This document shows, one piece after another, positions 2,187 through 29,725 of a DNA stretch of 64,000 nucleotides. Location: positions 1,922,001 through 1,986,000 of the forward strand of contig JARWIR010000091.1 of NCBI GenBank assembly GCA_029959085.1, read 5' to 3'. The notes under the pieces were generated by a model. It was not told the DNA's origin, searched no databases, and saw nothing but the letters and a program-made list of their open reading frames with translations. Source of the stretch: Nemophila menziesii. Its lineage: Eukaryota; Streptophyta; Magnoliopsida; Boraginales; Hydrophyllaceae. The translations under genes and the position numbers were made by a program. How positions within the stretch are numbered: position 1 is the stretch's first letter; each line of letters begins with the position of its first letter.

Positions 2187-3032
2187 AAGCGTGAGGTAAC
2201 CCGTCGAGCTTAACGACGTTAAACAAAAGCCAATTACTTGTATATTAGCTGAGTTTTTACATTTTTGCAATTTAGATTAGTTTGATTTTCGTAATTTTAT
2301 TGTTTTTATTAAGAAATGAGGAAGGGTAGTTGTTTTTGATGATTTCAGGGGTAAAACGGACTTGAGTTTGGGGTCGATTTGGCGAAAACAGAAGAAAAAG
2401 AGGTTGGATATCCAGGAGAAACCGGGAACCCGGTTTCACAAAACCGGGGACCCGATTTTGGAGCTGGTACCAACCACTTTTAACGCAACACTTGGCGTTT
2501 GGGTAATGTCACAGCGTCAGAATCCGGGTACCCGCATTTGGCAAAACCGGGTACCCGGTTTTGGTGCTGTAATTTCTGAAATTCCCTGACCCAGCGTCTT
2601 GGTGGCTTGCGTTTTCGTGCGTTTTGATTCGCGCCATCGACACAAATCCGGGTACCCGCATTTGGCAGAACCGGGTACCCGGTTTCGGAGCTGCTGTTGG
2701 TGAAATTTTCTGACGCACCACTAGCCTCCGTACCTCCGAAATTCATCTACCAAAACACTATATATCATCAAATCCTACCCTCTTTCACCACAAAAACATA
2801 AGATCAACTCACCTCCTCTCCAAAATATCATCAAATCCTTAGTTTTTCCCAAGATTCTTCTTCACCCAACTCCTTATATTAAACCCAATTCTTTTTTCTC
2901 CCATACAAATTAACCAAGACCCATCTCATATTTCACCTAGTTCTTAAATTCTTAAACCTCAAAACATCAAAATTCTAAACTTTTTCTCTAAGTTTTTCTT
3001 TATTTGAAGTTTTGAGTTTGGGGTGAAAAGAG
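2187..3032 (+). other. Athila-1 pol to env-like spacer with paired palindromes
   Basis: Non-coding. It starts with the conserved post-pol string gaggtaacccgtcgagcttaa and continues to the leader of the env-like ORF. From 2419 to 2686 it carries three pairs of CCGGGTACCCGG-type inverted repeats (listed separately). Two polypurine-like 12-mers TGAGTTTGGGGT lie at 2363-2374 and 3013-3024; the second is 8 nt before the env-like ATG. Positions 2740-3000 are C/T-rich and A-rich like a plant leader. Short ORFs here (for example 2362-2589) are repeat translations without support. Confidence 0.7.
2419..2686. repeat. Three palindrome pairs (CCGGGTACCCGG type)
   Basis: Pair 1 has centres at 2427.5 and 2449.5, pair 2 at 2529.5 and 2552.5, pair 3 at 2653.5 and 2676.5, so spacing within a pair is 22-23 bp. 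The best copies are a perfect 20-bp palindrome AAAACCGGGTACCCGGTTTT at 2543-2562 and AACCGGGTACCCGGTT at 2669-2684. The first member of pairs 2 and 3 is the shorter ATCCGGGTACCCGCA. Linkers inside pairs 2 and 3 are almost identical (TTTGGCAAAA and TTTGGCAGAA), so the pair itself is the repeated unit. Confidence 0.9.
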
Positions 3033-4349
3033 ATGACTAACAGAACCGGTGATTTCCGAAGAACTGCTCCTAGAAGAAAGACCACCATTGGTGGTTCTCA
3101 AGAACAAGCTATTGCGATTCCTGATTCGCGTCCTAAACGAAAAATTGACGAAGTAAGGCTTGATTCTAACAGAAAAGAAATCACAGGTCTAAAGAGAAGA
3201 TTGATTGATGAGATTGAAAGTGAGAAGGAACCAGAAGAGGAAATTGCGAAGAACATTGAGGAAGAAACTGAACAAGAGATTCCGGAAGCACCCGTTACGA
3301 AACCTCCGCGTATGAAGATGTGGGCCCACAAGCCTAAGAGGGTTTACACTTGTTGGAATACTCAGGTTCGTGAAAGAATTGAATTTTTAAAATTTGGTGA
3401 AGAGACGAATTTTCCTATGGGTATTATGAGTAGTGATTACAAGGAATATGCTGTGACATGTGCTAAGTTTGGTTGGAAGGCGTTACAAGAAAGGAAGCTT
3501 GAGTTTATTCCTACTTTTGTGCGAGAATTTTACGAAGGTTTAGCTACCTCACATGATGCCATTGATATCCGCAGAAAGGTAGTTCCTTTCTCTATTGAAC
3601 GTATTCGGAAATCATTGAAACTACCCAACTTTCCTGGAACATGTCCCTTCCAAGAAATTCTTAATGACCCTTCTTTTGATTTTGAATCCCTTTGGGGGAC
3701 CGTGCTTGTTAATGGGACTAGCCCAATTCCGGAAGGTGAAAGGTATCCTGGACAGTTTTACAGCAGTAGTTTGACACCTCATGCGAAGGTTTGGTCTCGT
3801 TTCATAATACCCACTTTCTTTGGTATTAAACACACTTCCGAGTTGAAGAAAGAGCACATATTTGTTATTAAGTGTATTTTGGAGGAGAAACCATTTGATG
3901 TTGCTAAGATCATTTATGATACAATCATGGAGTTCGCGAAATCACCAATGAAACAACAAAATCTGAAGTTTCCTTGTACTATTACTCAGTTGTGTTTAGA
4001 CGCAAAGATTCCGCGTAAGGACGCAGATATTGATACTGTTTCAGTTGGTGTGAGTATAGCTTTGAGCACAATCAAGAACATCCATGAAGAAGCAACACGA
4101 GCTACAAGAAGTCCAAGAACTCCTCAATCAAAGAAAGCGAAAACTGTACCTGAGTTGGAAGTGAAGATTCAGGTGTTGGAAGAGAATCAGGAGAGGATGA
4201 TTGCTACCTTGGGAAACGTTACAAAAGAATTGGACCTGCTTCGAAATTTAATCCTAGGCGTAAATACACTTCAAAACGCGATTTATGATGCTGTTACGCG
4301 AGATAAAGGTCCAGAACGCAACACCGATAACCAGCCTCGCGCTGGTTAA
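3033..4349 (+). CDS. Athila env-like ORF (putative plant transposon protein domain)
   Basis: An intact 438-residue ORF in the position of the third, env-like ORF of Athila elements. The N-terminus (about 1-95) is charged, rich in K, R and E. Residues about 110-330 resemble the putative plant transposon protein domain seen in Athila ORFs: a FVREFYEGL stretch, then KVVPFS, then KLPNFPGTC. The C-terminal 60 residues contain a likely coiled coil (VPELEVKIQVLEENQERM). I see no clear signal peptide or transmembrane segment, so calling it an envelope is a positional tradition and not supported by this sequence; function is unknown. The start is chosen because the ATG follows the polypurine-like 12-mer by 8 nt, a spacing also seen in Athila-2 and Athila-3. 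Confidence 0.8.
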   Translation: MTNRTGDFRRTAPRRKTTIGGSQEQAIAIPDSRPKRKIDEVRLDSNRKEITGLKRRLIDEIESEKEPEEEIAKNIEEETEQEIPEAPVTKPPRMKMWAHKPKRVYTCWNTQVRERIEFLKFGEETNFPMGIMSSDYKEYAVTCAKFGWKALQERKLEFIPTFVREFYEGLATSHDAIDIRRKVVPFSIERIRKSLKLPNFPGTCPFQEILNDPSFDFESLWGTVLVNGTSPIPEGERYPGQFYSSSLTPHAKVWSRFIIPTFFGIKHTSELKKEHIFVIKCILEEKPFDVAKIIYDTIMEFAKSPMKQQNLKFPCTITQLCLDAKIPRKDADIDTVSVGVSIALSTIKNIHEEATRATRSPRTPQSKKAKTVPELEVKIQVLEENQERMIATLGNVTKELDLLRNLILGVNTLQNAIYDAVTRDKGPERNTDNQPRAG

Positions 4350-4411
4350 GATACGTTTTCTAAACTTTCCTCTTAGTGTATATTAGTTTAAATGCTTTAT
4401 TGAGTCTTTTC

Positions 4412-4431
4412 GAGTCGTGGGGACACGACTC
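4412..4431 (+). promoter_or_regulatory. Conserved 20-nt stem-loop, Athila-1 copy
   Basis: GAGTCGTGGGGACACGACTC has perfect 8-bp arms and a GGGA loop. Copies lie at 30330-30349 (identical) and 7431-7450 (opposite strand, one change that keeps pairing as a wobble in RNA). Each copy is followed within a few bases by a polypurine-like G-rich motif. The role is unknown. Confidence 0.75.
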
Positions 4432-5150
4432 ATTTTTGAGTTTGGGGTGGGGTTCGTTGCCTCATCCCAGTTTTTTATGTGTTATTTGCTTTATTTGCTT
4501 TCAATAAAAGAATTTTCGGAGTTGCGTTTGACTATAGAAATTTTTAAATATCCCTTTAAGCATACTTTTGATAAATCTATGATAGTAAATAGTGGACTTT
4601 AGGGATTGATATAAAACGCACTTACAATTGCATGCGAACATAGGTAATTGATAGGAAAAATTAATTAACAATGCAAATGAAGTAAGCTTGTACTCAAGGA
4701 ATATGTTTGGTGTGTAGAACGTGAAATCCTAATTAGTAGAGAACCCACCTAGATATGAACTAAAGACAAACTATGTACTTAGGAAAATGATAGGGGCAGT
4801 TCTTTGTTAGCCATTTGTGCCTTTTTAGCCTTCTATCCCTTGTATTAATTATTATCCGTCTTAGCCCACTTTGAGCCTGTAGCTTTTTCTTTGTAGCCAC
4901 GATATAAGCCATTATCCCTTAGATTATTAGGCATGACCATATGACCCGCACTTGAATCACAATCCTGAGACATGTCTCGAGCTTGAGTTTGGGGTGGTGG
5001 GACCACATATGGGGACTTTAATGGGTTGGGATTGATGTGCTTTGTATTGTAGCACAATTGCAGATGATATATACTTGTAACCCTTTGCCGGGAATGTAGA
5101 AAAGTGAAAAAGAAAGAAAAAAAATGAAAAATTTTGAAAAATCATACAGT

Positions 5151-5192
5151 AGGATCCGGGAACCCGATTTCGAAAATCCGGGTACCCGGTTT
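5151..5192. repeat. Fourth palindrome pair of Athila-1, 3' of the env-like ORF
   Basis: ATCCGGGAACCCGAT (centre 5161.5) and ATCCGGGTACCCGGT (centre 5183.5), spacing 22 bp, the same unit as at 2419-2686 but 2.5 kb downstream. It lies between the arms of the CTTTGCCGG / CCGGCAAAG inverted pair and is followed by gcctctgtacaa and then a long A run. Confidence 0.85.
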
Positions 5193-5201
5193 GCCTCTGT
5201 A

Positions 5202-5236
<35 letters not shown>
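5202..5236 (+). repeat. Poly(A) run of about 35 bases
   Basis: An uninterrupted A tract inside the Athila-1 3' non-coding region, just after the palindrome pair. No target duplication or retroposon body is visible beside it, so it looks like slippage and not a separate insertion. Confidence 0.8.
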
Positions 5237-5238
<2 letters not shown>

Positions 5239-5834
5239 CTTGAAGAAAAGAAAAAGAAAAATATGAATGAATAAAACATCCGGCAAAGTGGAATTTTCTG
5301 AAAATCATCTTATTTTTAGTGGGTAGACATGGGGCGCTAAATTGTTGCGTATATGGGTGAGTGAGAACATCCTTTTGAGCGTTAACTCAAGCTCGAGGAC
5401 ATTGTGATGGTAAGTGAGGAGAGAGCCAAAAGCTCACTTCAAATTTACCAAATATACATCCATACCCGCCCTTAAGCCAATATTATAACCGTAAAGACCT
5501 CGTGATTCCTAAGTGCATAGTGAATTTATGATTCTGTTGATAGGGAATACGCTAGGTGGAGCGTTCAAAGCGAGTTAGGATTAATGACCACCCTATAGCC
5601 ATCATACAGAGATGAGTACAAGTGTAACCTTCAAGCATTGCGACTTTAATTTTATGATTGAGATTATTTATGTTTGATGTTGCATGATTAGTGTATGTAG
5701 ATGTTAATTTTTAAAGTTTGCTATATGAGATTTATCTTAGGAATTGCTTTAGGGTTTATTTGCTAGCTTCTATGTGTGTATACGTTTACTTCTACCCCTT
5801 TGTTTTGTTTTACTTTGTCGGGACGACAAAGGTT

Positions 5835-5846
5835 TGAGTTGGGGGT
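5835..5846 (+). promoter_or_regulatory. Polypurine tract of Athila-1
   Basis: TGAGTTGGGGGT ends 2 bases before the LTR start TGATGTCTCC. The same string occupies the same place in Athila-3 (31828-31839). It primes plus-strand DNA synthesis in LTR elements. Confidence 0.85.
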
Positions 5847-5848
5847 CT

Positions 5849-7400
5849 TGATGTCTCCCTAATTGTTCTTATTTTAGACCCTTAGGAGACATCATTTTTG
5901 GTGTTTATTTAATTAATTTGATAGACTTTTGGACTTAAAATGCAATAATCCGGAATTACCTTTTTAATTCTAACATTTTTAATTTATTAAACTTTTGCGC
6001 GTAATATTGGTATTTTTAGTGTAAAGTTTACAGGTTTTAGATGTTAGCTAGGAGAGGAATCCGAGGAGAAGGTCAAAGATCGTGAATTAGAGTCAAGACT
6101 TGAAGACAATTCCCGAAGATATTATTTTTAGAGCTGAAAATCCACTTTCCAGGCCAAAGATTGCTGATTTCGAGGCGCTTAAGCGATGATTTAGCCGCTG
6201 ACCTTTGAAGAGAAATCATTCCTTATCGAGTTACGGAACTTTAGCAACTGGAATGAGGTCAATCGGAGTTGTAACGCATCGGGAAAAGCTGTTTTAGTGA
6301 AGGCCTATCATCAGTTACGGGATTTTGGGCTTAGAAAGTGGGCTTGGACATTTAATTAGGCTTTTAATTTCTGGTCCAAGCCCTAGTCCGAATTTTTACT
6401 TATAAAAGGAGGTCTGGACTTCTATTTTTCACACAATTCACTTTCCACAAGATTAAAAACACCAGAGAAGCTACAGCAGGAAGAAAGGAGAAGCTACAAG
6501 AGCTGGAGTGGGTCTATAGCTCCGTTCGTAGTCATTCTGATTCCGAAAATTAGGTTTTTCTTATATTTTAATTTTGTAACGAATATGAATTCCATTTCTT
6601 TTTATTTTGTTTTTAATTTTAATATGAGCTAAGCTTTCATTAGTGCTTGAGAACAAAACAATGGGTGAATCCTAGTTTTATTTTATAACGAATGATGAAT
6701 TTGGGTTTCTGTTGAATTAAATTAAATTAGGGCTTTTACTCTTTTCGACAATTTGTGAATGTTTACTGATTTTAGAGTCGCGAACTAAAATTAGGTATTA
6801 GTATCTAAGCTATTCCATATATGTGGCGTATGGATCATCCTGACGGGGGGTTTAGGTACAGAAATAATTGTTCAATCTGGGATAAAAACTATTGATTCTG
6901 ACGAACTTAGTTAATCCTAGGGCCAAAGTGGTAATAAATCTTAATCATCCAACGGTGGATCATATTTACCCTGACGGGACTAGTGACACTTTAGGATTGC
7001 CTTATAGTCCACCCTGACGGGGGTATAAGGAGTTTAGAATCCCGACCATTGTAATTGACTGATTTAGCCCTTAAACAACATAAGTTAGAAAGTAAAATTA
7101 GGAGGATCCTTGCGTTCTCAAGTACTACATCTCATATTGCGTTTTCATACATTTTACTTGCGTTTTAGCTTCTACTTGCATTTTAATATTTGTCTTTCAT
7201 TCATTAGCTTTAATAAACAAAACCAAACAAACAATTTATTGTCTTTTATTTTCATAAGTGCATCAATCACTACTTGCTAAACATTGTGATCAACCATCCG
7301 TCCTTGGAACGAATCTGTATTATCATACATACTACTTGGGACAACCGTACACTTGCGGTTGTGGTTCGATTAGCATTTGCATTTATTTTTAGAACACACA
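5849..7400 (+). repeat. 3' LTR of Athila-1
   Basis: About 1552 bp, from TGATGTCTCC to GAACACACA. The first 50 bases contain TGATGTCTCC and its inverted copy GGAGACATCA. A TATA box TATAAAAG lies at 6401-6408. The right end is set by comparison with the other family LTRs and by the switch to Athila-2 internal sequence at 7401, so it may be off by a few bases. The matching 5' LTR is outside the window. Confidence 0.8.
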
Positions 7401-7430
7401 AAGGACCACCACCACCCCCAACTAAAAAAT

Positions 7431-7450
7431 GAGCCGTGTCCCCACGACTC
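7431..7450 (-). promoter_or_regulatory. Conserved 20-nt stem-loop, Athila-2 copy
   Basis: On the minus strand GAGTCGTGGGGACACGGCTC. It differs from the other two copies by one base in the 3' arm, which turns a T-A pair into a T-G (U-G) wobble, so the stem is kept in RNA. Confidence 0.7.
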
Positions 7451-8138
7451 GAAAAAGACTCAAGAAAAATAAAATTTAAAATTAGCATACATATTGCACA
7501 TAAAGAAATGGTAGGGAAGAAAGAAAACATACTCTTCGAGGCTATTACCTCGCCTTGTCGATACTCGGATTAAATTCTAATGTATCTTCTTCACCCAACT
7601 TCTTATTTTCTTTTCGTTCATGACACGTGATCATAATAGGATATTGAATTAAATAACGACATGGGAGAGATCGAAAATTCGTATCACCTCCTCATAGATC
7701 AATTGTGCCACATCTTCCTCTTCTCCTCACAAAATATAATTCAAACAACCCCAGCATTCCAAATTTCCATGAACCTTCATGTATTCTCCTTCAACTTCTT
7801 CTTCAAATACTTTCTTATAAGAAAAAGGTAGTTCCTTTAATTGTTTCCTTGGAGAAGCTATCAGGGCCCTTGAAGCTTTCTCTTTTTCTTTAGGTATAAG
7901 GTCTTTGATTTGTAGAGGTTGTGTTGTCTTCTTCACTAAGGTTGGAATCTTTTTGCTCATTGAATCAACACAGCTAGCTAACCTCTCTTCTCATGACTTG
8001 TTTTACCCTTTGAATTGGAACTAGGACTTTTCTCACTTGATTTCTTCTCAATTAAATCCAATACCTTGATTTCTTCATCTCCCATATAGTAGATAATGTT
8101 CATGTTCTCTTAATCATCTCACTTGACGCCCAACTCAA
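7451..8138 (-). pseudogene. Degraded env-like region of Athila-2
   Basis: On the minus strand a TGAGTTGGGCGT motif (8138-8127) is followed after 8 nt by an ATG (8116-8114), the arrangement that starts the env-like ORF of Athila-1. The frame is then broken repeatedly. Lys/Ser-rich fragments such as 7960-7727 remain, but I cannot find the conserved env-like core. Athila-3 has a similarly short remnant, so the two probably descend from the same deletion derivative. Confidence 0.5.
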
Positions 8139-8555
8139 AGCTTTAACCACTCTTGAAATTTGAAACTCTTGATTATTGGTTGTACAAGCTTAATTTGGGT
8201 TAGGAGGGGTGATTTGATGATGATTCTCTATGTGGGTAAGATGGATTCTTCATGGATTGGTTTGGATTTAAGAAATTGTAGGATGAATTTTTGCAATTTA
8301 AGCTTTTGATTCTTGGATTCAAGGTGTTTTGGTATGATATGGGTGGTTGAATCTTCTTTGTAATGATGTGGAGAATGAATTGGATGTGTTTTCATGGTGA
8401 TTGGGTAGTGTTTTGATGATTGGTAAAGGTTTTTATGAGCTCTAATGGAGTTGGGCAAGTTTTGGAGAAGAGATAGAGGCTTAAGGTTTAGTAAATTCGG
8501 AATAATAAGATTCAACCCTCTTTTATAAGCTTGAAGACCTGTTTTCTCTTTCTCT
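8139..8555 (-). other. Leader of the env-like region, Athila-2
   Basis: On the minus strand an A/C-rich non-coding leader that matches 29370-29720 of Athila-3 (both run through tccaa, catcaaaacactacc and aatcaag blocks). The 95-residue frame 8515-8228 is composition only: His, Leu and Ser rich, with no family match. Confidence 0.5.
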
Positions 8556-8566
8556 GGCGGCGTGCT

Positions 8567-8919
8567 GCGGTATACCGCGCATATCGTCCGGTATACCGCA
8601 CCTATCAGCGTTCAAAATTTTCGCCTCTGTACAATACACGTGGTACGACCCCGTGGCACGGGTTTTAGGCTCGCAGATCATGGCACGGACTAGGGGGTAG
8701 TCCGCAGGGTACCCCGCGATATCTGTAGCTCCCTTCGTCAAAATACCCGTGATAGCAACCCCGTGGCACGTGTTTTCGTGCGGTGCATGGCGCGGTATAG
8801 GGTCCGGTATACCGGACCCATCAGCTATTTTTTTTTCTTTTCTGTATAAAACACGTGGCTGCTACCGTGGCACGGGTTTTCACACCTACGGTATACCGCG
8901 GCTGAGGTCCGGTATACCG
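8567..8919. repeat. Three palindrome groups (GCGGTATACCGC type), Athila-2
   Basis: GGTATACC cores are centred at 8572.5 and 8593.5 (21 bp apart) and at 8893.5 and 8914.5 (21 bp). The middle group is centred at 8785.5, 8797.5 and 8809.5 (steps of 12 bp; the outer two are 24 bp apart). The best copies are GCGGTATACCGC (8567-8578) and the perfect 18-mer GGTCCGGTATACCGGACC (8801-8818). Between groups lie three CACGTG boxes (8637, 8767, 8852) and repeats of gtggcacgggtttt. This is the same spacer that carries CCGGGTACCCGG pairs in Athila-1. Confidence 0.9.
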
Positions 8920-9152
8920 CGCCCCTGCTTCAGTTTTTCCGAAAAAAATTGTTCGCCTTCCCTAACTCGATTTCTCCAATACCTAATCATCAAAAACACT
9001 AATACCTTCCTCAAATATGCAATATTAACTAAAATTAACTAAACTAAACATAAATTAAAAACTAGAAACGTAAAAACATAAAAGAAATTACGGGTTGTCT
9101 CCCGTTTAGCACTTTTGTTTAACGTCTTTCAAAGTTAGACGTGTTACCTCGA

Positions 9153-10319
9153 TTACGGATGACGAAATTTCCACCCCTTGCCTTTAATTCCCACGAAATT
9201 TTCAGCTCGATTCTTCATAATCATGGATGGTACCATCCAAGATGTCGTGGGAAGTGGTGTCTCTAGTGGTAACTCGATTTCACTTGTAGCATTACACTCC
9301 TCTAGCAATCCATTCATCTCTTTAGTTTCGAATCTTCGTTTGTTAGAAAGAATGTCCTTCATGAATTGACCGTATTTTGACATTCTTGTGAGAGCTTCTA
9401 CAAACGGGATGCTGATCTTTAACTTGTTCACCATGTCAACGAACTTCTTGAATTCCCGGTCATTGTCCTTTCTGACACGTGAAGGGAATGGTGGAGGAGG
9501 ACATGTGTTGGTTACCACTTGGCTCTCTTTCTTTTCTGGTGTCTTCTCTTGGACACTTCTTTGTTCAACTACCTCTTCGACCTTATCTTCTGTTGTTGCT
9601 TCTCCCCCCGTTTCTAGAATAGGTACTGGTTCTGGTTCTGGTCTTGGTGGAGGTAGTTGTTTTCCACTTCTTAATTCAACTGCATGACAAACTTTGTTTT
9701 CTTGAGCACTAGTATCACTTCGGAGTTGCCTCTCTGCAAGGATTTTAGTTTTTTCCACCATTTGTGACACTGTCTGCACCATCTCCATAAGCACACTCTG
9801 TGAGTCTTGGGACTCTTGCTGGCGATTCTCTATCTTTTCAATTAGGTTCATCATCTTAGCCATGCTTGAATTCAAACTCGAAGGTTGTTCTTGTATGGTT
9901 TGCTGCATTGAATAAGGAGGTGGTTCTTGATAAGCTTCATTATAAATTGGCGCTTCTTGATATATAGGTTGTGGAGGATAGTAAGATTTTGGTCGTGGTT
10001 GATAATAATCATCATAATAATGGTTATTATGATAATACGTCTGTTGATCTCCGACCCAATTGTAACTCTGTGGGGGTTGATACTCAGCGTAATTTCCTTG
10101 GGATTGATAATAGCCATCATGATAATGGTCTCTTTGATAAGGCATGAAGGAAATTGAGGCTGGATTATTCATGCAATATTCCCACGTGTGATCTCTTGCT
10201 CCACAACTAGGACATGAAGGTGCGGTATGTACTAGATCCCTCTGAGCTAGTTTTCGCGAGTGTTCTAATGCTTCCTCAAGTTGTCGGTTTAACTCCTTGA
10301 GCTTCAGAGATTCCATCAT
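9153..10319 (-). CDS. Athila gag, C-terminal part with zinc knuckle
   Basis: An open 388-residue frame. It starts near the primer site (163 nt downstream), but the Retrotrans_gag capsid-like domain present in Athila-3 gag is missing, so the product begins at a short helical stretch and goes straight to a knuckle-like CPSCGARDHTWEYC (about residues 36-49; C-X2-C-X4-H-X4-C). The middle is rich in Tyr, Gln and Pro (PPQSY, YYQPRP). The C-terminus carries the conserved Athila gag-protease linker (FVEALTRMSKYGQFMKDILS, then LLEECNA). The frame ends before the protease, where the pol deletion begins. It may be expressed from the adjacent LTR; function as a trimmed gag is uncertain. Confidence 0.8.
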   Translation of the reverse strand: MMESLKLKELNRQLEEALEHSRKLAQRDLVHTAPSCPSCGARDHTWEYCMNNPASISFMPYQRDHYHDGYYQSQGNYAEYQPPQSYNWVGDQQTYYHNNHYYDDYYQPRPKSYYPPQPIYQEAPIYNEAYQEPPPYSMQQTIQEQPSSLNSSMAKMMNLIEKIENRQQESQDSQSVLMEMVQTVSQMVEKTKILAERQLRSDTSAQENKVCHAVELRSGKQLPPPRPEPEPVPILETGGEATTEDKVEEVVEQRSVQEKTPEKKESQVVTNTCPPPPFPSRVRKDNDREFKKFVDMVNKLKISIPFVEALTRMSKYGQFMKDILSNKRRFETKEMNGLLEECNATSEIELPLETPLPTTSWMVPSMIMKNRAENFVGIKGKGWKFRHP

Positions 10320-10481
10320 GAATTAGCTTCTTCAGGATCTAATAACACGAAACCTTTATCTCCTAATAAATCTGCTTTCGCCTAAAAAGAATCTGTAAAG
10401 ACAAAAACTAAAAAGAAAAGCGTAAAATAGAACTAACTAAAATAAAAGCACAATATAATTGCACAAGGACTAACGATGTAG

Positions 10482-10499
10482 TCCCCGGCAGCGGCGCCA
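10482..10499 (-). promoter_or_regulatory. Primer-binding site (tRNA-Asp type), Athila-2
   Basis: On the minus strand TGGCGCCGCTGCCGGGGA, 6 nt inside the LTR end. It matches the 3' end of plant tRNA-Asp from memory with one mismatch (C for T at position 9). Athila-3 has the identical site. Confidence 0.85.
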
Positions 10500-10505
10500 A
10501 AAACT

Positions 10506-12079: not shown

Positions 12080-12360
12080 ATAATTTTGTGTAGGTAAACC
12101 CCCTTTAAGTCTCGAAAATGCCCCTTAAACTTTTGTTAAATTATAAAGAACCCATATTCTTTGATAAAAAAACTCCCATAGTTTTGAAAATGACCCCTAA
12201 ACTTTAGGTTTTGAACAAATAACCCCTATTCTTTGATAAAAAATCAACATAGTCTGAAAAATGACGCCTAAAATTTAGGAATAACCCCCTTAAGTCTAAA
12301 AAATGACCCCTAAACATTAGGTTTGTAAAAATAAACCCCCTAAGTATCTAAAGAAAAAAA
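12080..12360. repeat. Degenerate short tandem motif (gacccctaaacttt)
   Basis: Four to five loose copies of aaatgacccctaaactttag, alternating with aacccctattctttgat. No ORF. Probably the edge of an old DNA element, origin not identified. Confidence 0.45.
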
Positions 12361-12560
12361 CCGTTTGGAACCGTTAGGAACCGGACCGGAACCGAAACCG
12401 GTTCCCTATAACGGTTCAGATCTCTCATTTATGCAATCGAGAACCAGACCGAACCGCACCGGTAGCGGTGGCACCGGTAAGCCGGACCGGACCGATAAGG
12501 CCCAGGTCCTCTAAGGACCGGTCCGAAACCGGTCCGTAACGAACCGATAGCCAGGCTGAT
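12361..12560. repeat. ACCGG-rich hAT-like terminal remnant
   Basis: A dense run of ACCGG, CCGGT and GGACCGG words on both strands. Such runs occur near the ends of plant hAT elements as subterminal transposase sites. No terminal inverted repeat or 8-bp duplication was found, so the assignment is tentative. Confidence 0.35.
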
Positions 12561-19622: not shown

Positions 19623-20139
19623 ACATATTACACCAAAATATGTAAGACAATAAACGATAGACAATGACTTTTTAATTTATTAAAATTTATTATGATATGT
19701 ATTGTGGTGATATGTGTAAGTGATTTTAGTCCTTTAAGAACACTAATATAAGTATTCGTATAAAATGATACATATTGGTAAATTTATATACTACAAGAGG
19801 TACATATGTCATTTATTAATTTTTAGGCTAATTTTATATATCTCATCATACATTTGTATTTATCATGTGAGTATAAATCTGTCTGAATACGTATCCCCGT
19901 ACTTTGCCAAGATATTATTATTGATATTTTGAATGGACGTTAATTTAAAATCCTAGCCTTTTACTTATTAGAATTTGCATAATTATTTTTCGATTCCAAT
20001 TCTTATCCTTTTTTTTTGTAAAGAAAAAAACAAGTCGAAAAATTATCCTACACCCTTTTTCCTACACAGTTAGAAAGATAGATAAAGGAGTCAAAAACCG
20101 TATCGTCAGTCCATTATGTTAAATCTAATGTTCAGCCTA

Positions 20140-22900
20140 ACACATTTTGTAAGAATGTCCGTCACTCCATTAAGTTCTCTTTTCACACAAAGTACCTTCC
20201 ATTTGGGGAATTAATCCATTTATATCCAAGCTTTAACAATTATCAGCTGGATCCTCCAATCAATTTTCATTACACTTGTTAATGTCTTGAATAAATTTTA
20301 AGGCTATCAAAGTAGAACGAGAAACTCTGAAGATTAAGATCTTTTGCACATCTCATAGCCATAGAATGGTCTAGATTTTGCCTTCAACAACAAAACTAAC
20401 TTTGCATCGTTTTGTAATTATTTTTTAATTAATTTTGTTTTTATTAATTGCGATAGACACTGCACTTCCTGGTTCCCATTTTTAAGAATAAAGATGTATT
20501 ACTAAGCCAAATAGTTTCAGCGTTATCCTGAAAGATCATGTTGTCTTCATTCTCCCTAGTGTATTGATTGATATTATTGAACTAGATTATGTACGTATCT
20601 TCCACACTGCCAAAAAGATATTTGATTAAAGCCTTAGTTTTTCCATTGATCTCCCAAGTGTTTCAATTCTTTTTTTCGAAAAGGCCTTTCATTCGAACTT
20701 TCCAAATATTCCACAAGGTACAAAATGGTAGCCTTAACCAATCTCTTATCCCAATCCATAATTTGTGTAACTTTTGATTGTTTTATCAATCCAATCCCCA
20801 ATTTTACCATTGAAGTTCCTAGCTATTTTGCATTGAAGTTGAGATTTGGACCATACTCCCATGTTGAGCGAACATATAATAAGAATATGTTCGATCGTTT
20901 CAGATCCACTTTCGCACCATTCGCAAGTGTCTGAAGAAATGCATTTCATTTTTTCCAGGTTTACTTTAGATGGAATAGCGTTGTTATATATTTTCTAAAT
21001 GAAATTCCTATTTTTTTACGGAACATTAAACTGCCAAATAGAGTTCCATATTTCACTATCCTTATTCTCTGTATAAGCTGAGGATTGGACGTGGCAGGGA
21101 TACCCCTATTTTGTTGAGTATTTCCCATCTTTTGTATTTGTCCAAATAATTTGATCTTCCTTATCCAACTAAATAATCGGGAGTTCGATGATCGATGCAA
21201 AATCCCTTGACGTGCAAATTCTCGGAGGAAATCAAAATTTCATGCTGTCATGTTGTCGTTAGAATATTCAGCCACTTTATGAATTTTGCACTGATTTGGT
21301 TTACCCATATTTAAATCTTTTATCTATCCAACAATGTTCCCAGATGTTGGTCATAAGACCATTTCCAATCTACCAAATACCATCTTCTTTAAGGAACTTG
21401 AAACCATTCAAATGCTTGCCCAACTCCACGAATGTTTCTTTTTCAGTTTTGTATCCCACGTGTTATTGTTCGGAAATAAATTCCTTCAAGAACTTTTGCG
21501 ACTAGTGAGTTAGGATTATGTAAGATTCTCCAAACTTGATTGGCGAGTAAAGCAGGGTTCATTTTTTGAAAATCTCTAATCCTGATTCCACCAATCGATT
21601 TAGATTTGGCGATTTTTTTCCATCCAATCCAATGAATTATTTTCTTAAATCCAGAATTCCACCAGGAATTAGCGACTAAGCTATTGAGTTTTTTGCATAA
21701 AATCTTTGGGAACTCGAAAATTGACATTGCGTAATTTGGTATAGATTGCAGTATTGCTTTGATTAAGACCTCTCTTCCCCCTCCAGATAAAAAATATCAA
21801 TCTAGCTAGCGGATTTAGAAATTAATATATCCTTAATATAATTCAAATTCTCACGTTTTGCCCTTTTGAGAGATAAGGGTATGCCCAAATGCTTACCAAA
21901 GGATTTTTAGCTCTAAAATTCAGATATTTAGACACTTTTTTTATTGTTTCCTCCGACGTGCCAATACTAAATAAGATCGACGATGTATTGAGATTGATTA
22001 TTTAACCCGGTGCTTGGAAATATTTAGATATAATATTTTTAAAGCACTCGATTTCTTTAAGAATAACAGAGCGGCATTCGCAAATAAAAGATGTGTGAGT
22101 TTTGGCGCGTTTCGAGTAAGCGATATACCGTTAATGTTACCTTGTCGACATTCAAAGTTGATCAAACCCACAAGACCTTCTGTAAGCATTGTGAATAGAA
22201 GGAGAGAAAGAGGGTCACCTTGCATAATACCCTGTTCTGGTTTAAATTTCTTTAACCTTTCACCATTAATTTTGATTTGATAAGTCACAGTAGAAAGGCA
22301 ATTATAAATCAGATTCCTCCATTTATCACAAAATCCAATTTTTGAAGAACATCCATAAAGAAATCCCAGTTGACTTGATCATACCCCTTAGCCATGGCGA
22401 TTTTAGTCGTTGCATATGCTTTCTTTGATTTTCTCTTCATTTTAAGGTAGTATGAGATTTCCTGGGCGATTAAGATATTATCTCGGATACATCTCCCTTT
22501 AGTGAAAGCAGAATGGGTTGGAGCAATAATTTCATCCATGATGGGTTGAAGTCTCAGTGCTAAATTTTAGCAATTATTTTATAAATGAAGTTGAAACAAG
22601 AGATTGGCCTATATTCCAAGACAGATTCTTGGGCATCTCCTTTAGGTTTAAGTGTAATGAGCGATTCATTGATTTTATCAATGGTGTATTATTATTGAAG
22701 AAATTAACAACCATTTTAAATACATCATCTTTAAGGATATCGCAAAATTTCTGATAAAAATTACCTGGTAAGTTGTCAGGGGCAGGGGCTTTATAACCGG
22801 ACATACTAAACACTTCCAATCTAACTTCTTCCATATCAAGAACCTTGATTAGGCTGTCTTTCACAACTTCATTAATTTTACTCGGGGTATGAATAGGAAC
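20140..22900 (-). pseudogene. LINE-C ORF2 C-terminal half: RT, zinc-binding tail, RNase H remnant
   Basis: Successive minus-strand frames give SAFTKGRCIRDNILIAQE and YDQVNWDFF (22539-22309), GIMQGDPLS (22288-21998), a GGIRIRDFQKMNPALLANQ block (21727-21443), a Cys/His motif CEWC-X9-H-X4-C (20949-20746) and finally KRELNGVTDILTK, an RNase H C-terminal signature, near 20175. The catalytic FADD has become FANA (about 22085-22070), so the RT is dead. Many frameshifts and stops are present. Confidence 0.8.
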
Positions 22901-24120
22901 TTCTTCGATGTTGCTAGTTGGTTATTTTTAAAGACATTGATAAAATAATCTTGGATAATCCTTTTAATGCGTTTCGGTTTTTCCACCCAATTCCCATTGT
23001 CATCTTTAATATCACAAATGCGGATAATATTCCTTCTCGTTGTTGTAGAAGCAAAGAAATAATTAGTATTTTTGTCGCCTTTCTTTAGTTAACTATCCCC
23101 AAACGATCTGCACAAATAAATTCTTCTTGGGTCCACAGATTTTTAATCTCACCTTCGATATTTTGATATCGTAATTCTCAGGACTAGGTTGATCATCCTG
23201 AATTTATTCCAGAATAACTTGGTATTTGTTGATCAATTTTTATTACAAAATGTTTCACGACCCCATCTCGTTAACACGAGACATGTAGATCTATTTTTAT
23301 GATGAAGTCTTAGATATATTCAATTCCTCTTCCTGTGTCCCACGATTTGAGCACCACATCTCTGCAATGTTTATTTTCAAGCCATATAGATTTAAAGATG
23401 AAGTATTTTGATATTCACTTTAGGTGATGATCTTTGCAGAATAAGAGGAGAATGATCAGATCCGATAGCCAGGAGAATTTTAATAATCGCGTCGGAGAAT
23501 AAATTATACCACGAATCTTAGGCGAGGCCTCTATCAAGACGCTCCTTAATATTTTTATCTCCTTCCCATTTATTTTTCCACGTGATGTGGCATCCTTTAG
23601 TCGGGGTTTCAATAAGATTATTGAGATTAATAAATTCATTGAATCGTAACATTCTATCAAGCTGGGAGGGATTCTACCTTGCTTTTATGAAGATTTAGTA
23701 ATATCATTAAAATCTACAATAATGAGCATAGGATCGAAAATGCTTGACTTCCATTTCAAGATACTTTCAAAGATTCTTTCTCTATCATTATTATTAGTCG
23801 GAATATACAAAGATGAAAATTTTGATTTGGAAGCATTGCAGATTACAAAATATGAGCAAGAGCTAACGATTATAATCTTGATATGATCTTTCCATGCAAG
23901 AGTAATTCCCCTGACCTAAACACTCTACCTCCGGTGTTCACCACAAATTTATTAGGAAAGGACTTCAAGAAACTACAAGACCTAATATCGTACTTTTAAA
24001 TTTTTATTCCAAAAGACATACAATAGAAAAATTAAATTTCGAATAGAGGGACTTAAACATTTTCCGGGTCGCGGATGCCCTAGCCCCTTGAAAATTCCAA
24101 ACCATTAGATTATCTATCAT
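22901..24120 (-). pseudogene. LINE-C ORF2 N-terminal half: endonuclease and linker
   Basis: The ATG at 24120-24118 opens ORF2 (MIDNLMVWNFQGARA), and this start overlaps the ORF1 stop (24112-24110), as in the other LINEs here. The apurinic-type endonuclease is frameshifted; later pieces include the linker GDKNTNYFFAS near 23070, typical of plant L1 elements just before RT. Confidence 0.65.
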
Positions 24121-24626
24121 TTCTGACCACCTTAACTGACTGAACGCCACCCTCAGAAGTGTTGAGATCAAAGTTTTCCTTCACGCGTACAACAACGGTA
24201 CTATCATCATCCTCTGTGTCTCTATTCGAATAGTCATCACCTCTAAGGTGACCCTCACTATCAGGCCCTACTATAATAATAGTATTTCCTATGGTCCAAT
24301 GGTCCTTCCACCGTGCCAGTTCGTCCCACACACTTTCCAAACTTCTTCCTCCATCACTTGATATTTCACCTTACGGAAGCTAGAGTACAATTTATTCATG
24401 AAATGATGCATTTATTGGATCCTTCATCCCATGTAGTTTACTTCTTCTCAACACACTTTTTTTAAACTAGATATTCTTTCTCTCCAAGCTGGTGCCAATT
24501 TTCTTTTGAGATTGGATGGCCAAGATAACTTCTTGTTTGCTTCAATAACACATATTCTTCGTGTAATATAGTTCTTTTTATTATAATACAAATCATGTTG
24601 CATGTGCTGGCTAATGTGGATAGATT
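24110..24626 (-). pseudogene. LINE-C ORF1, 3' part
   Basis: An acidic C-terminal segment (SNRDTEDDDSTVVVRVKENF) that ends at a TAA overlapping the ORF2 start. The 5' part of ORF1 lies beyond Athila-3 (33-34.4 kb). Confidence 0.5.
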
Positions 24627-24631
24627 GGGAG

Positions 24632-26165
24632 TGATGTCTCCCTATTTGTGATGAATTAATATTAGTTGGAGACATCATTTTTAGTGATTTAGGAAGTCTT
24701 TGAGTCGATTTTCCCATGAATTGCTACACTTTCCTATTTTGAGTCTTGATTTAGTAAATTATTGTTTTTAGAGCATATTGGGTTTAATTATTTATTTGGT
24801 GTGAAGCTTTAAAGATAATTATGGAGATTAATTAGATTCCAAGTCAAAGACTAAGAGATATGGAAAGAGATAAGCATGGTAATTGGATATAAGGAAAGAA
24901 AAGCTAAAAATATGGAAAAGGAAAAGCTGCCTTAAATCTGAATTTCACCACATGCGACCACAAATCAGCTTATATTTCAAAATCGGTGTGGAATTTGGAG
25001 AAACGGTCAAGAGAAAAGTTAAAGATATTTCCTAGACGATGAATTTCGACTACTCATACACGTCAAACAGATGAGTATTGAAGGTGCTAGGACCAAAACA
25101 AAAACGGGCCTGATTCCATGTTTTAGGGTTACGAATTTGAGTTGGGCTTGGAGTCCACTACTTACCTTCTCCTTCAAGAAAACGAATTAGGGTTCCTAAA
25201 CACCTATAAATACACCCTTATACCATTGTAAACATGTCTTTTCTTAGTTTCAAGCTTAGGCTTAGTCCTTACTTGTATTTTCTCAGTTTTGAATAATAGC
25301 TTAGTCTTTATATTTATTATTCATCCTTAGAATCAAGCTATTCATTCAAGAAGCAAACTGACCTATAGAGGAAGACAAGAAGAAGAAGTTGGAGAGTGAC
25401 AAACTCCTCTTCTACATCTCACCTTCTCTATATTTAGGGTATTTAGCTATAGATTTATGCTCAACCATATTTCTAAGCTTTTATTCTGTAAGTTTTACTT
25501 TTAATTGTTGGGTTATTATTTTGTCTTAAATTCATAATACGTATTTTAATTGATTTGAGCTTGGCGTATATTGTTATTATGTGTTTTGACTTATTTTTAC
25601 AACCCTAGATTTGTCCAAACTTATGATTATTCTTAGTTATTGACAACACCACATAATTGTCTAGTTTTGATCCTTTGCCTAACTAGATAGCCATAAAGGT
25701 TTGATTTAATCACCAATCATTACTCAGGAATCCTTTGTAGTGGAGAGGTTGCTCCTAAGCCTAATAGAGGCTAGGTAGAATTTAGAATCCTGGTTAATAT
25801 ATAATGCTTAATTTGTGACAGGCTATAATAACAACTTAGTAAAATAGACTCATATTAGTGACCCTATTCTATTAGACTTACATTCATATTTATTTATTGC
25901 ATTCTTATTTAGTATTTATTCATATCAGATAGTTATCCATATTATTTTATCTTTTTATATTTTATTCTAAAACGTCTAAATTCATCTACGCTTGTTAAAT
26001 ATAAGTAGATCTAACAGATACAATCCCTGCGAACAAACTTGACTTATCATTAAAACTTGCAAATGATCTGTGATACTTGCAGTGAGTTCCATGGTTCTCA
26101 AGGGTGTGTGCTCTTTATTATTATCTTTATTTATCTATTATTTTATCACACCTTTGCCCCCACCA
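24632..26165 (+). repeat. 5' LTR of Athila-3
   Basis: 1534 bp, TGATGTCTCC to CCCCCACCA. TATA box TATAAATA at 25205-25212. The terminal inverted repeat is intact. Confidence 0.92.
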
Positions 26166-26171
26166 AGTTTT

Positions 26172-26189
26172 TGGCGCCGCTGCCGGGGA
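26172..26189 (+). promoter_or_regulatory. Primer-binding site (tRNA-Asp type), Athila-3
   Basis: TGGCGCCGCTGCCGGGGA, 6 nt after the LTR, identical to the Athila-2 site. Confidence 0.9.
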
Positions 26190-26293
26190 TTTATCTTTAA
26201 GTTAAATCTATCTTGCGTTTATTTAGTGTAGAAGTTTTTATTTGTTTTCAGTTTTACGCTTTCTTTTTGTTTTAGTCTTTCTCAGGATTGTAG

Positions 26294-28344
26294 ATGGATA
26301 ATCAACGGTCAGAGCTAGGTTTCCCTAGTAAATTTCGAGTTCAACGCATTGGGATTCGCGTCCCAGCCATTCAAGCTGTTAGATTCAAGCCTGATCCTGA
26401 TTTAATTAATCAATTCGCGAGCTATGGGAAATTTAATGGTGATACAAATCAAGATCCGGTCAGATCTGTTCAGAAATTCATGCAATTCTGTGATGCCTAC
26501 ATTAATGAAGGTGTTACGCAAGAACAGATGTATTATTTAATGTTTCAATTTTTCTTGACCGGAAAAGCAAGCGATTAGTTCGATGATCAACCTCCCGAGC
26601 TAATAACCAATTGGGACAAGCTTCAAAAAAGATTCCTTGATAAATTTTATCCTACAAGTATGCGAGTTAAGGAACTATTGGAGCCTATGAATTTCTTACA
26701 AGAAGTCGGAGAGAGTGTTGGCGAAGCATGGACGAGATTTCAAAAGATGTTGGCAAGATGTCCACCACATGGATACACGCCACAATTACAATTATCCATG
26801 TTCTATAATGGACTCGATAGAGAGTCAAGGCTGAGAGCATATAATATGGGTCGTGGTAATTTTGTCTCTATGGATCCAAACGAAGCAAAGAGTGGTATGG
26901 AAACAATCATTGAGAACAACATGAGTTGGCCACAAGAACAAACTCCTACCACAAAAGAAGAAGAAGAAGCGAGGATTTCAAGCTTGCAAGAACAAATACA
27001 ACAACTCTCTGTAATAGTTAAGGAAAGCATCCCAAAGCCACCTCAACAGTTATACCTGCAAGAACAAGCCTATGAAAATCAAGCTAATCAACCACCGAGC
27101 TGCAATGTGCATAATGTAAGTCAAGCTCAATCACGTCCTCAAGAAGAAATCACTGAGTTAAAAGAGTCTATTAGTCAATTCATCAACTTCTCAAAGGATA
27201 ATATGAGCAGACTTGAATCAAAGATCGATGCATCAGTAGTGCAAAGCCTGCAACAACAGAATCAAGATCTGAAACATCATAAACAACTTTTAGAGAATAA
27301 TGTAATGCGGCTCACTACAATCATAGAACAAATGCAAAGTCAACTCCTACAATTGACCCAAGAGACAACGTCTAACATGAAGAAGATCCAATACGTTGAC
27401 GACAAGGTTAAGACTATTAGTCTTCAAGCTCAAAAGATAAAATAACACGGTGAGATAATCACCGAAACGCTACCATCTCCCTCAAAAGGGGATGTTCTAC
27501 CAAACAAGTCAAACGTAATTCAGATGAACTTAGATGAGATAATTGTTGAAGATTGGGTTGAAGAAGTTGAACAAGGTGAGATTAAGATGCCAAGAGTGGT
27601 TTAGGAACCAAGAATTGAAGAGAGAAGTAGAGCAAGGCAGCCACCCATACATTGCCACTATCCCGCTTATCCAAAGGAGCAACAATAGAAGTGTATAGAG
27701 GCGTTAAAACAAGTGAAAATTAACGTCCCTTTACTCGAAGCTATGGAAGGAAGGCGAAACTATGACTGGTTCTTCATGGAGGCACTCTTCAATAAAAAAA
27801 GGTTCACAAGATCCAAATCTGTGACACTAAATGAAGGGATATCAGCACAAGTTCAGCAAAGATTACAACCAAAGCTTAAAGATCCTGGAAGTTTCAACCT
27901 CCCCATCAAAATAGGCGGAATATTTCATGGAAAATCCATGTGTGATTTAGGGTTAAGTGTAAATATCATGCCCAAAAGTATATTCAAGAAGATTGGTATA
28001 ACCGACATCCGTAACCTTACAACTTGCGGATCAATCAACAACAAAGCCGTGGGGAGTAATAGAGGATGTACTCGTTCAAGTAGGTAACCTTGTTATTCCA
28101 ACAGACTTTATTATTCTTGACTATAAAGCAGATAAGAACGTCCCATTCATTCTTGGGCGTCCATTCCTAGCCACCAGCGATACAATAGTGAATGTGAATG
28201 AAGGAACCGTGACTCTCCGTATTGAAAATAACTCTGAAACATTCTATGTTTCGGGGAAGAAGAAAAAGAAAAATGAGTCAAAAGAACTATACCCAATCAG
28301 AGTTGTAGCCAAGAAGCCAGAACCCATAAGCCCCCCAAGAAACC
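26294..28344 (+). pseudogene. Athila-3 gag and protease, broken
   Basis: Gag starts at 26294. Residues about 35-160 form the Retrotrans_gag capsid-like domain (GDTNQDPVRSVQKFMQF, ending in the MSWPQEQ region). A TAG at 26576 breaks it after GKASD; the same frame runs on to a TAA at 27443. The C-terminus is Gln-rich with coiled-coil character. The same frame resumes at 27713 with the gag-protease linker and then an aspartic protease whose active site reads DLGLS in place of the usual DxGAS (about 27941). A frameshift near 28060 follows, then NVPFILGRPFLAT, the second conserved protease block. At least four in-frame stops plus the shift make it inactive. Confidence 0.85.
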
Positions 28345-28554
28345 ATGGAGAAAAAGATTGAGTTTGGGGTAGGAGACAAGGTGGCATGGAAACCTCCCAA
28401 TCCCAAACATAACAGTCCTTGGAAAGGGCCATACATTATCACGCAAATCATCTCAGAAGGAGTGGTCGAAATAAAAGTTATCGAAGGTTGCAAGCTCAAG
28501 TTGGTAAGTGTTAATCATCTCACTCACTGTTGGGGAGGCTATAAAAAGAAATAA
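28345..28554 (+). CDS. Residual integrase C-terminal tail
   Basis: A 69-residue frame (FGVGDKVAWKPPNP, WKGPYIITQI, NHLTHCWGG) corresponding to the SH3-like tail of Athila integrase, joined almost directly to the protease. RT, RNase H and the integrase core were removed by one internal deletion near 28340. A polypurine-like 12-mer (28359-28370) is embedded in it. Probably not a functional protein. Confidence 0.6.
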   Translation: MEKKIEFGVGDKVAWKPPNPKHNSPWKGPYIITQIISEGVVEIKVIEGCKLKLVSVNHLTHCWGGYKKK

Positions 28555-29725
28555 CTGAGGTAACTCGTCTAACTTTGAAAGACGTTAAACAAAAGTGCCC
28601 TTTGGGTGACATCCCATAGTAGTTTTTTTTTATGTTTTTAGTTTATGTTTAGTTTAGTTATTTTTAGTTGATATTGCATATTTGAGGAAGGTATTAGTAT
28701 TTTTGATGTTTAGGTGTTAGAAAAATCGAGTTCGGGAGGAAAAACACAAGTTTATGGAATATTCAGACTACCTCACCGGCATACCTGCTGAGTCTTCAGG
28801 TATACCAGCGAGCAGGAAACCCGAGCCAACGGGGTAAGCCACGCGTTCATTGCCGAGAGGTCCAGAATCGAGAAATTTCACCACCGGTATGCCAGCCAGA
28901 AGAAAACTCGTGCCCACGTGTAGAGGACTCGGGTATTTTGACGTAACTCGACCTGGAAGAACAACAGCTCCGGTATACCGGGCCCTATGGCCGGTATGCC
29001 GCCCACACCCGCTGTGTAAAGAAAAAAATAATTCTGGACACAATCTGAGAAAACTTCGGCAAGTCATATCTTTGCGCTCGGATGTCGAAATCAGGTGATC
29101 TTTGAGCCTAAACTGCATAACTTTTTGAGATCTAGCTATTGGAGAGGTTGTCGTTCTCGACCGGTATGACGGCCAGAACTCCGGTATGCCGGCCAGAAAA
29201 CACGTGCCCACGGGGTGTCACCACGGGTTCTATGTCGAGAGGTACCTTTCGAAAGCAAGCAACTCCGGTATACCGGGCCCTACGGCCGGTATACCGCCCG
29301 ACACTGCTGGAGAGAGGAAATTTTCGCGTTTTTCAGGTTATAAGGGTGAGCAGGTTGCTCTATTACGAATTTTTCAATCCTTAAGCTTCTCCTGCTTCCC
29401 CAAACCTCTCCCAACTCCATTAGAGCTTCAACAAACCTTCACCGAACATCAAAACACTACCAAATAACCATGAATTCACATCCAAATCCTTACCTACACC
29501 ATTACAAAGGAGATTCAAGCACCCAAATGATATCAAAACACCTAGAAATCAAGAATCAAAACCATAAATATCAAAATTCATCAACAATTCCTTAAACCCA
29601 CATCATCAAAACTTGATTCCATCACACCCACATGGAGATTTGTCATCCTAACACCTTTTCTAACCCAAATAAAGCTTGTTCCACCTATGATCAAGAGTTA
29701 CAAATTTCAAGAGTGCTCAAAGCTT
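28555..29725 (+). other. Athila-3 post-pol spacer and env-like leader
   Basis: Opens with gaggtaactcgtctaacttt (28558), the same post-pol string as in the other two Athilas. The palindrome pairs occupy 28776-29296, with CACGTG at 28915 and 29203. From 29370 it is an A/C-rich leader. ORFs here are repeat translations. Confidence 0.65.
28776..29296. repeat. Four palindrome pairs and one single (CCGGTATACCGG type)
   Basis: Centres at 28781.5 and 28802.5, 28975.5 and 28996.5, 29166.5 and 29186.5, 29270.5 and 29291.5, giving spacings 21, 21, 20 and 21. A single copy sits at 28889.5. Perfect copies are CCGGTATACCGG at 28970-28981 and 29265-29276; the others are CCGGTATGCC-type variants. The linker of pairs 2 and 4 is nearly the same (GGCCCTATGG and GGCCCTACGG). 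Confidence 0.9.

Follow-up and report, generated by a model that had tools for sequence, protein, structure and literature searches.

The 64,000-nt stretch of Nemophila menziesii DNA analysed here, hereafter the window, covers positions 1,922,001-1,986,000 of contig JARWIR010000091.1 in assembly GCA_029959085.1 (genome of 1.52 Gb, 361 contigs), and contains three Athila retrotransposons (Athila-1, Athila-2 and Athila-3) together with a solo long terminal repeat (LTR) of a Sirevirus-like Ty1/copia family (Table 1). All three Athila elements carry arrays of the palindromic 10-mer CGG-N4-CCG, below called a box, in which boxes recur in pairs at a nearly fixed start-to-start distance (step); the arrays of Athila-1 are accompanied by pol and by an envelope-like (env-like) open reading frame (ORF) matching PF20167.

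The Athila label rests on the initial annotation of the sequence, on an anchor motif past pol (GACGTTAAACAAAAG) and on the PF20167 ORF. Only Athila-1 combines the features by which the lineage is recognised, i.e. the Ty3/gypsy domain order of pol (RNase H followed by integrase, according to Pfam matches) and a PF20167 ORF on the 3′ side, while Athila-2 and Athila-3 are tied to it by DNA similarity and the common anchor. The anchor, itself free of palindromes and presumably typical of Athila, produced 8745 + 8499 matches genome-wide versus 2 + 4 for the reversed control. In Athila-2 it is preceded by an ORF without a significant Pfam match, which we take for gag from its motifs. In Athila-3 the gag ORF and the anchor are 1.1 kb apart with frames of at most 132 aa between them, one of which, at 27689, is similar over 39 residues to the last part of the Athila-2 gag-like ORF. 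Since a gag-like ORF, or only short frames, precede the anchor, pol is missing or decayed in these two elements, and none was recognisable in the ORF lists or in the domain search of the window; nor was a homologue of the Athila-1 env-like ORF found in them. The location of the palindromes in a pol-to-env spacer, as given in the initial annotation, is thus correct for Athila-1 (pol end 2183, env-like ORF from 3030) but not for Athila-2 and Athila-3.

Table 1. Coordinates of the Athila and Sirevirus-like features in the window.
Feature	Position	Strand	Remarks
Athila-1 pol, open frame running off window start	3..2183	+	RNase H (PF17917, E=4e-35), then integrase core (PF00665, E=5e-16)
Athila-1 post-pol anchor GACGTTAAACAAAAG	2215..2229	+	31 bp past end of pol frame
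Athila-1 pair 1, CGGGAACCCG / CGGGGACCCG	2423..2454		boxes 2423/2445, step 22
Athila-1 pair 2, CGGGTACCCG twice	2525..2557		boxes 2525/2548, step 23; second box within 22-bp perfect palindrome 2542-2563
Athila-1 pair 3, CGGGTACCCG twice	2649..2681		boxes 2649/2672, step 23
Athila-1 env-like ORF	3030..4349	+	PF20167 (Transposase_32), E=1.3e-26; C-terminal coiled-coil-like region
TTTGCCGG...CCGGCAAA inverted repeat	5084-5091 with 5280-5287; 31056-31063 with 31229-31236		also in L012, L013, L015, L016
Athila-1 3′ pair, CGGGAACCCG / CGGGTACCCG	5157..5188		boxes 5157/5179, step 22; within TTTGCCGG...CCGGCAAA inverted repeat
Athila-2 pair, CGGTATACCG twice	8568..8598		boxes 8568/8589, step 21
Athila-2 second inverted-repeat motif CGTGCCACG	8652..8660; others 8762-8770, 8866-8874	-	sequence positions
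Athila-2 middle group	8793..8819		half-site 8793 and single box 8805-8814, step 12; box enclosed by 20-bp palindrome GGGTCCGGTATACCGGACCC (8800-8819)
Athila-2 pair, CGGTATACCG twice	8889..8919		boxes 8889/8910, step 21
Athila-2 post-pol anchor	9112..9126	-	position matching Athila-1 anchor
Athila-2 gag-like ORF	9156-10322	-	end ~30 bp from anchor
Athila-3 LTR stretches	24632-26165 and 31842-32918		bounds from self-BLAST
Athila-3 post-pol anchor	28581..28595	+	position matching Athila-1 anchor
Athila-3 pair, CGGTATACCG / CGGTATGCCG	28971..29001		boxes 28971/28992, step 21
Athila-3 degenerate pair	29162..29191		intact box CGGTATGCCG at 29182, degenerate partner 20 bp away; Tandem Repeats Finder period 20 at 29161-29198
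Athila-3 pair, CGGTATACCG twice	29266..29296		boxes 29266/29287, step 21
Solo LTR, Sirevirus-like Ty1/copia family	59918..61324	+	87% to L026 LTRs; AAAGC on both flanks
Solo LTR pair, CGGTACACCG twice	60250..60280		step 21
Solo LTR pair, CGGTACACCG twice	60355..60386		step 22; ~110 bp upstream of TATA-like word at 60494

Box pairs in the window

Paired palindromes had been proposed for all three Athila elements, with a further Athila-1 pair at 5151-5192, and all of these are present as boxes with within-pair steps of 21-23 bp. Exact boxes number 8 in Athila-1, 5 in Athila-2 and 5 in Athila-3. The four central bases (N4) are mostly GTAC in Athila-1 (also GAAC and GGAC), TATA in Athila-2, and TATA or TATG in Athila-3, so that the uniformity claimed earlier within each element is incomplete in Athila-1 and Athila-3.

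Chance occurrence was assessed with 1000 first-order Markov simulations per Athila spacer. Perfect 12-bp G+C-rich palindromes were found 2, 2 and 2 times per spacer versus 0.07-0.10 expected (simulated maxima 2-3), and for pairs at a distance of 19-24 bp the counts were 2, 1 and 1 versus 0.016-0.034 expected (simulated maximum 1). The Athila-2 spacer alone is weaker by a looser count of palindromes with 5 of 6 matches, which gave 5 and did not exceed the simulated maximum of 7.

Enrichment and spacing beyond the window elements

In a contiguous sample of 264 kb, made up of the window and the 200 kb preceding it, 64 half-sites were combined with 9 gap lengths, and from these 576 symmetric combinations CGG-N4-CCG was the most over-represented by observed/expected ratio (51 versus 5.5). 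The steps of at most 60 bp in this sample were 13 bp (eight times), 19 bp (once), 21 bp (eight times), 22 bp (three times) and 23 bp (twice), and all eight 13-bp steps fall in the LTRs of two Sirevirus copies, L026 and L029.

A palindrome-blind set of 20 places of 900 bp each (L044-L063) was located solely by the post-pol anchor; it comprises the first 20 anchor places listed on contig C1, minus 792953 and 1044480, and represents one contig end rather than a genome-wide draw. Boxes were present in 18 of these loci, with 60 boxes versus 4.6 expected, and at least one intact pair in 12. Every one of the 17 steps of at most 60 bp was 19, 20, 21 or 22 bp. One of the two box-free loci, L051, carries a variant of head-to-head half-sites, and the other, L049, is without any of the array.

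Family 1 is represented by Athila-1 of the window and 13 loci (L011-L016, L037-L043), which were selected for carrying the box AACCGGGTACCCGGTTT. In these selected loci all 63 steps of at most 60 bp were 22 or 23 bp, and each spacer holds 8-10 boxes, with a further 2-4 boxes in the 3′ region of five of the six loci fetched at greater length. Random spacing in other copies, on which the initial annotation had let its claim depend, was thus observed neither in the blind set nor in family 1. The 14 copies carry 3-5 pairs each, arranged as a tandemly repeated composite unit with inter-pair distances of 79-146 bp (181 and 186 bp in two copies). Local amplification of 20-23 bp units is evident in L015, with four boxes at exact 23-bp steps. 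Steps of 24-50 bp gave 1442 forward matches genome-wide versus 908 in the reversed control, and among the matches listed some are 20-23 bp triples instead of single long steps.

A second motif, CGT-N3-ACG in the form C(C/A/G)CGTRCYACGGG, occurs 41 times in the blind set versus 1.7 expected, and ranks there above CGG-N4-CCG by the score used for that set. Of its copies, 22 lie 23-42 bp after an exact box, while no exact copy was listed for Athila-1 and Athila-3 of the window or for L045, L046, L049 and L057. Since the second motif recurs beside the boxes in some families, the array is in these a composite element. Some of the copies repeated between box pairs contain CACGTG, a G-box-like word.

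Conservation and symmetry of the boxes

Variation in the 14 family-1 copies was counted after removal of alignment columns with fewer than 8 letters, defining a box slot as a position with an exact box in at least 5 of the 14 rows (in fact 10-14). In the arms, only 3 of 710 cells differ from the commonest letter when counted in six of the ten slots, those free of the search word AACCGGGTACCCGGTTT, and 3 of 548 in the remaining four. The non-box spacer differs in 368 of 5103 cells (398 columns with at most 3 gaps; Fisher p=9e-18 for arms against non-box), the within-pair linkers in 48 of 664, and the two central bases, counted in seven slots, in 10 of 170. The arms mutate approximately 17 times less than the surrounding spacer, and centre and linker drift at background. 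Because arm cells so rarely vary in comparison with linker, centre and spacer, what is kept is the arms and the length of the spacing, and what drifts is the sequence of centre and linker. In a version with seven copies, arm diversity was zero in gap-free columns; with six of the references, 2-5 of 186 shifted positions of the box mask gave a value equally low.

Complementarity between the outer N4 bases (T-A, G-C or C-G) was observed in 55 of the 60 blind-set boxes, compared with a permutation mean of 36.3 and a maximum of 47 in 2000 permutations. In L057 and L020 the boxes within a pair differ from each other (CATG or CATA versus CTAG), and all except the CATA boxes are fully self-symmetric. 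The self-symmetry of these unlike boxes (CATA apart), together with the outer N4 complementarity, favours a symmetric reading of every box over box-to-box RNA pairing. The CpG observed/expected ratio is 0.94-1.42 in 11 array pieces versus 0.66 in the window.

A module shared with a Sirevirus-like family

The solo LTR of the window is flanked by what is apparently a 5-bp target-site duplication, AAAGC. Its longer relatives in the 264-kb sample are the Sirevirus copies L026 (2842 to beyond 8251) and L029. L026 encodes a Ty1/copia gag (PF14223, E=4.3e-7), and carries the Sirevirus polypurine tract AGGGGGAG followed by AT/TG at the 3′ LTR, which starts at 8251; the tract lies at 7759, 8071, 8160 and 8241, three of these being further copies. 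The LTRs of L026 are 99.85% identical, and the env-like ORFs of L026 and L029 are 98.98% identical over 393 residues. There is no pol ORF in the ORF list of L026, by which the L026/L029 type appears to be a recent element that keeps an env-like gene without pol.

Boxes are situated in both LTRs of L026, and one pair (5722/5743, step 21) is directly upstream of its env-like ORF. An LTR cluster upstream of TATA was seen only in L026, L029 and the solo LTR of the window; in an exact CGG-N4-CCG scan the Athila-3 LTR stretches held no box. Counting the linker, the 5722/5743 pair is identical to Athila pairs in L050, L060 and L063 at 26 of 27 positions, the strands being opposite with respect to transcription. 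When the non-box letters of three Sirevirus pieces were shuffled, none of 200 controls reached this score (best 40.1 versus 46.1 bits). Athila-2 and the solo LTR of the window have 28 of 32 bases in common across a pair, in this case in the same orientation. These alignments leave two readings, a transfer of the module between the superfamilies or a constraint of both to one extended site; under each of them the module is found in both orientations, which is compatible with a DNA signal.

Env-like ORFs downstream of the arrays

The L026 env-like ORF matches PF20167 over profile positions 7-176 of 177 (E=2.5e-8), at 34 bits, which is below the curated cut-off of 45, and direct BLASTP between the Athila-1 and L026 ORFs was not significant (E=0.73). 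Four loci with PF20167-type ORFs were identified in the 264 kb. CGG-N4-CCG pairs precede the ORF in three of them (Athila-1, L026 and L029), and in L033, the fourth, it is preceded by an array of head-to-head half-sites. Downstream of that half-site array, the PF20167-type frame runs from L033 9038 to L034 237 and is split by a stop. Genome-wide, 16461 first-look candidates for PF20167 were obtained, and all 150 that were scored exceed the cut-off.

Structural searches with the Athila-1 env-like ORF returned a weak bZIP-like stretch (E=0.21) and, in PDB profiles, only weak matches, the best of them with the coiled coil of MafG (E about 0.1). The AlphaFold model from a two-row alignment had a pLDDT (predicted local distance difference test) of 38.5 and no confident fold. 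Searches of protein databases for env-like relatives returned one other protein, which as a query found itself only.

Other repeats near the arrays

The distal inverted repeat TTTGCCGG...CCGGCAAA, with arms approximately 170-220 bp apart, brackets the A-rich 3′ region of Athila elements, and in family 1 the 3′ box pair is inside it. A CGG/CCG-rich cluster of accggaccggaaccg-type repeats, largely not of the CGG-N4-CCG form, was observed outside the Athila spacers at 12382-12530 of the window and at 8955-9089 of L035.

Interpretation of the arrays

The boxes are in our view orientation-independent DNA sites for a dimeric protein, set in pairs, in an array that putatively regulates the env-like ORF, and we give this a probability of roughly 0.6. 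The cis-regulatory reading is based on the symmetric CpG-rich boxes, the two-turn spacing, the tandem arrays before an ORF or TATA-like word, the conserved arms with a free centre, and the occurrence in both orientations. Each CGG-N4-CCG box would be read as double-stranded DNA by a protein dimer with one subunit per CGG half-site, and two boxes 19-23 bp apart, approximately two helical turns, would place two dimers on the same face of the DNA, probably cooperatively. In Athila, the pair arrays that lie past pol and before the env-like ORF may serve as an internal enhancer or promoter of the ORF, and in Sireviruses the module would be employed at two places, in the LTR ahead of the TATA-like word and in front of their own env-like ORF. 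Protein binding, the dimer, same-face cooperation and promoter function are what we infer from this arrangement. The binder is probably a transcription factor of the host that both superfamilies recruit, the simpler candidate given that almost one core serves unrelated elements, and a protein encoded by the elements is considerably less likely. LOB-domain dimers were considered as the binder, and nothing usable on them was obtained from the literature.

Several observations weigh against this interpretation. There is no intact pair in 8 of the 20 blind loci, and arrays are present in Athila-2, Athila-3, L020, L032 and L034 though no env-like ORF was detected there. The inner N4 bases are complementary in just 34 of the 60 blind-set boxes, and over the 12 distinct N4 types outer complementarity is 9 of 12 (permutation mean 4.2, maximum 10), a weak signal. 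With the window copy as reference, 12 of 156 mask slides gave a diversity as low as that observed. For 11 array pieces, the predicted RNA structures exceed those of shuffled sequences in stability (z -2.2 to -6.1). Spacing departs from two turns in L032, L033, L034 and L051, which carry head-to-head doubled half-sites at roughly 11-14 bp, and in the 13-bp steps of the L026 and L029 LTRs; the 12-bp step in the middle group of Athila-2, correctly noted at first, is therefore not the lone exception it was taken for. Because such variants exist, two helical turns are not obligatory, and the two-turn spacing is preferred rather than essential.

The boxes might instead act in RNA, as hairpin or kissing signals for packaging, dimerisation, translation of the env-like mRNA or as small-RNA precursors, and a pair could form a 12-bp stem with a loop of 9-11 nt. 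We consider this unlikely in spite of the stable folds. The folding energy of the opposite strand is similar (z-scores refer to the first strand), as expected of any palindrome, and because both strands fold, folding does not discriminate. Pairing of box A with box B in family 1 would leave 1-2 central mismatches in 46 of the 60 complete pairs counted; the remaining 14 are TA/TA, and no TT occurs. Boxes A and B differ in L057 and L020, and the pair common to Sirevirus and Athila is inverted relative to transcription. The initial annotation had left the choice between a dimeric binding protein and cruciform or RNA hairpins; the dimer site is the best supported, by conserved arms, free centre, either orientation and two superfamilies, and RNA hairpins fit worse. 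It is very improbable that the boxes are functionless tandem duplications of one ancestral palindrome homogenised by slippage, although the composite unit is tandemly repeated, which accounts for part of the uniformity within elements, and local 20-23 bp amplification occurs (the four boxes of L015 and the triples among the matches listed). Within the same units, mutations are about 17-fold rarer in the arms than in linker and spacer, spacing and dyad symmetry persist across families as the cores change, and the module is common to an unrelated superfamily, so that the duplication raised at first as a possible sole cause is seen only in part. Less credible still is that the boxes are mainly recognised by the small-RNA or methylation machinery of the host, as a silencing target of no use to the element: the raised CpG ratio of the array pieces agrees with it, and Sirevirus LTR palindromes are reportedly small-RNA hotspots, but a sequence merely attracting silencing should be lost and not conserved in its arms.

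The PF20167 env-like protein could itself bind the boxes in the manner of VANC, the anti-silencing protein of VANDAL transposons, its target being amplified in tandem and drifting in concert with the protein, which we regard as doubtful. The Athila-1 and L026 ORFs both match PF20167 (L026 below the curated cut-off), all four PF20167-type loci in the 264 kb have an upstream array (three CGG-N4-CCG, one half-site), and a nuclear signal is predicted for a PF20167 ORF of a sunflower Athila (PMC11728184). The account of VANC targets in PMC5735166 describes, in its main text, short motifs tandemly repeated in non-coding DNA of plant transposons and diverging together within families, much as here; VANDAL is a DNA transposon for which binding by the encoded VANC was shown, a step hypothesised here, and the term "palindrom" is absent from that main text. 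VANC is the best functional analogue for an element-encoded binder. Against the PF20167 protein as binder, no DNA-binding domain was found by Pfam or PDB profiles apart from the weak bZIP and MafG coiled-coil matches, pLDDT is low, and the two ORFs lack significant BLASTP similarity. Moreover, Athila families whose cores differ occur side by side, and the core of Athila-2, Athila-3 and Sirevirus is almost identical, which a host factor fits at least as well. A bolder proposal, to which we lend limited credence, is a mobile cassette of paired CGG-N4-CCG operators and a PF20167 gene shared between Athila and Sirevirus, in which the PF20167 protein would be a DNA-binding regulator or anti-silencing factor instead of an envelope, recognising its own operators and serving non-autonomous copies in trans.

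Relation to known systems and significance

The closest precedent is the RM boxes of Sireviruses (Bousios et al. 2010, PMC2829016), which according to the passages on these motifs are CGG-CCG palindromes upstream of ENV and in LTRs upstream of TATA, at least 8 copies per element, specific to Sireviruses (Ty1/copia) and absent from the compared "classic" Ty1/copia elements. The Athila boxes resemble them in the palindromic CGG-CCG core, in being CpG-rich, and in the location upstream of ENV; a copy number of 8 or more is reached by the Athila-1 family, with 5 exact boxes in each of Athila-2 and Athila-3. The RM of Inga, AGCGGTASTACCGCT, is close to GCGGTATACCGC. Neither a fixed pairing at 19-23 bp nor occurrence in Ty3/gypsy Athila as well nor an env-like domain in common is described in the same passages, in contrast to the arrays presented here. 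Because the Athila-1 carrier has the Ty3/gypsy RNase H-integrase order, its boxes, which would act in the way of RM boxes, are not classed among the Sirevirus RMs. The additional 3′ ORF of sunflower Athila (PMC11728184, in the relevant passages) is like that of Athila-1 env-like, downstream of pol and a Transposase_32 (PF20167) protein; upstream palindromes are unmentioned in those passages, for which the term was not searched. No report of palindromes upstream of an Athila env-like ORF was found in the open-access literature, most subscription journals being outside this scope. The Sirevirus CGG-CCG palindromes were already known, whereas the Athila boxes, their fixed pairing and the sharing across superfamilies look new.

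The role and expression of plant envelope-like genes is an open question, to which a conserved, orientation-independent paired module shared by two unrelated superfamilies in one host gives a testable handle through the protein that would bind it. The module could lead to a host factor exploited by many retrotransposons, or it could reveal a DNA-binding, regulatory role of the env-like protein.

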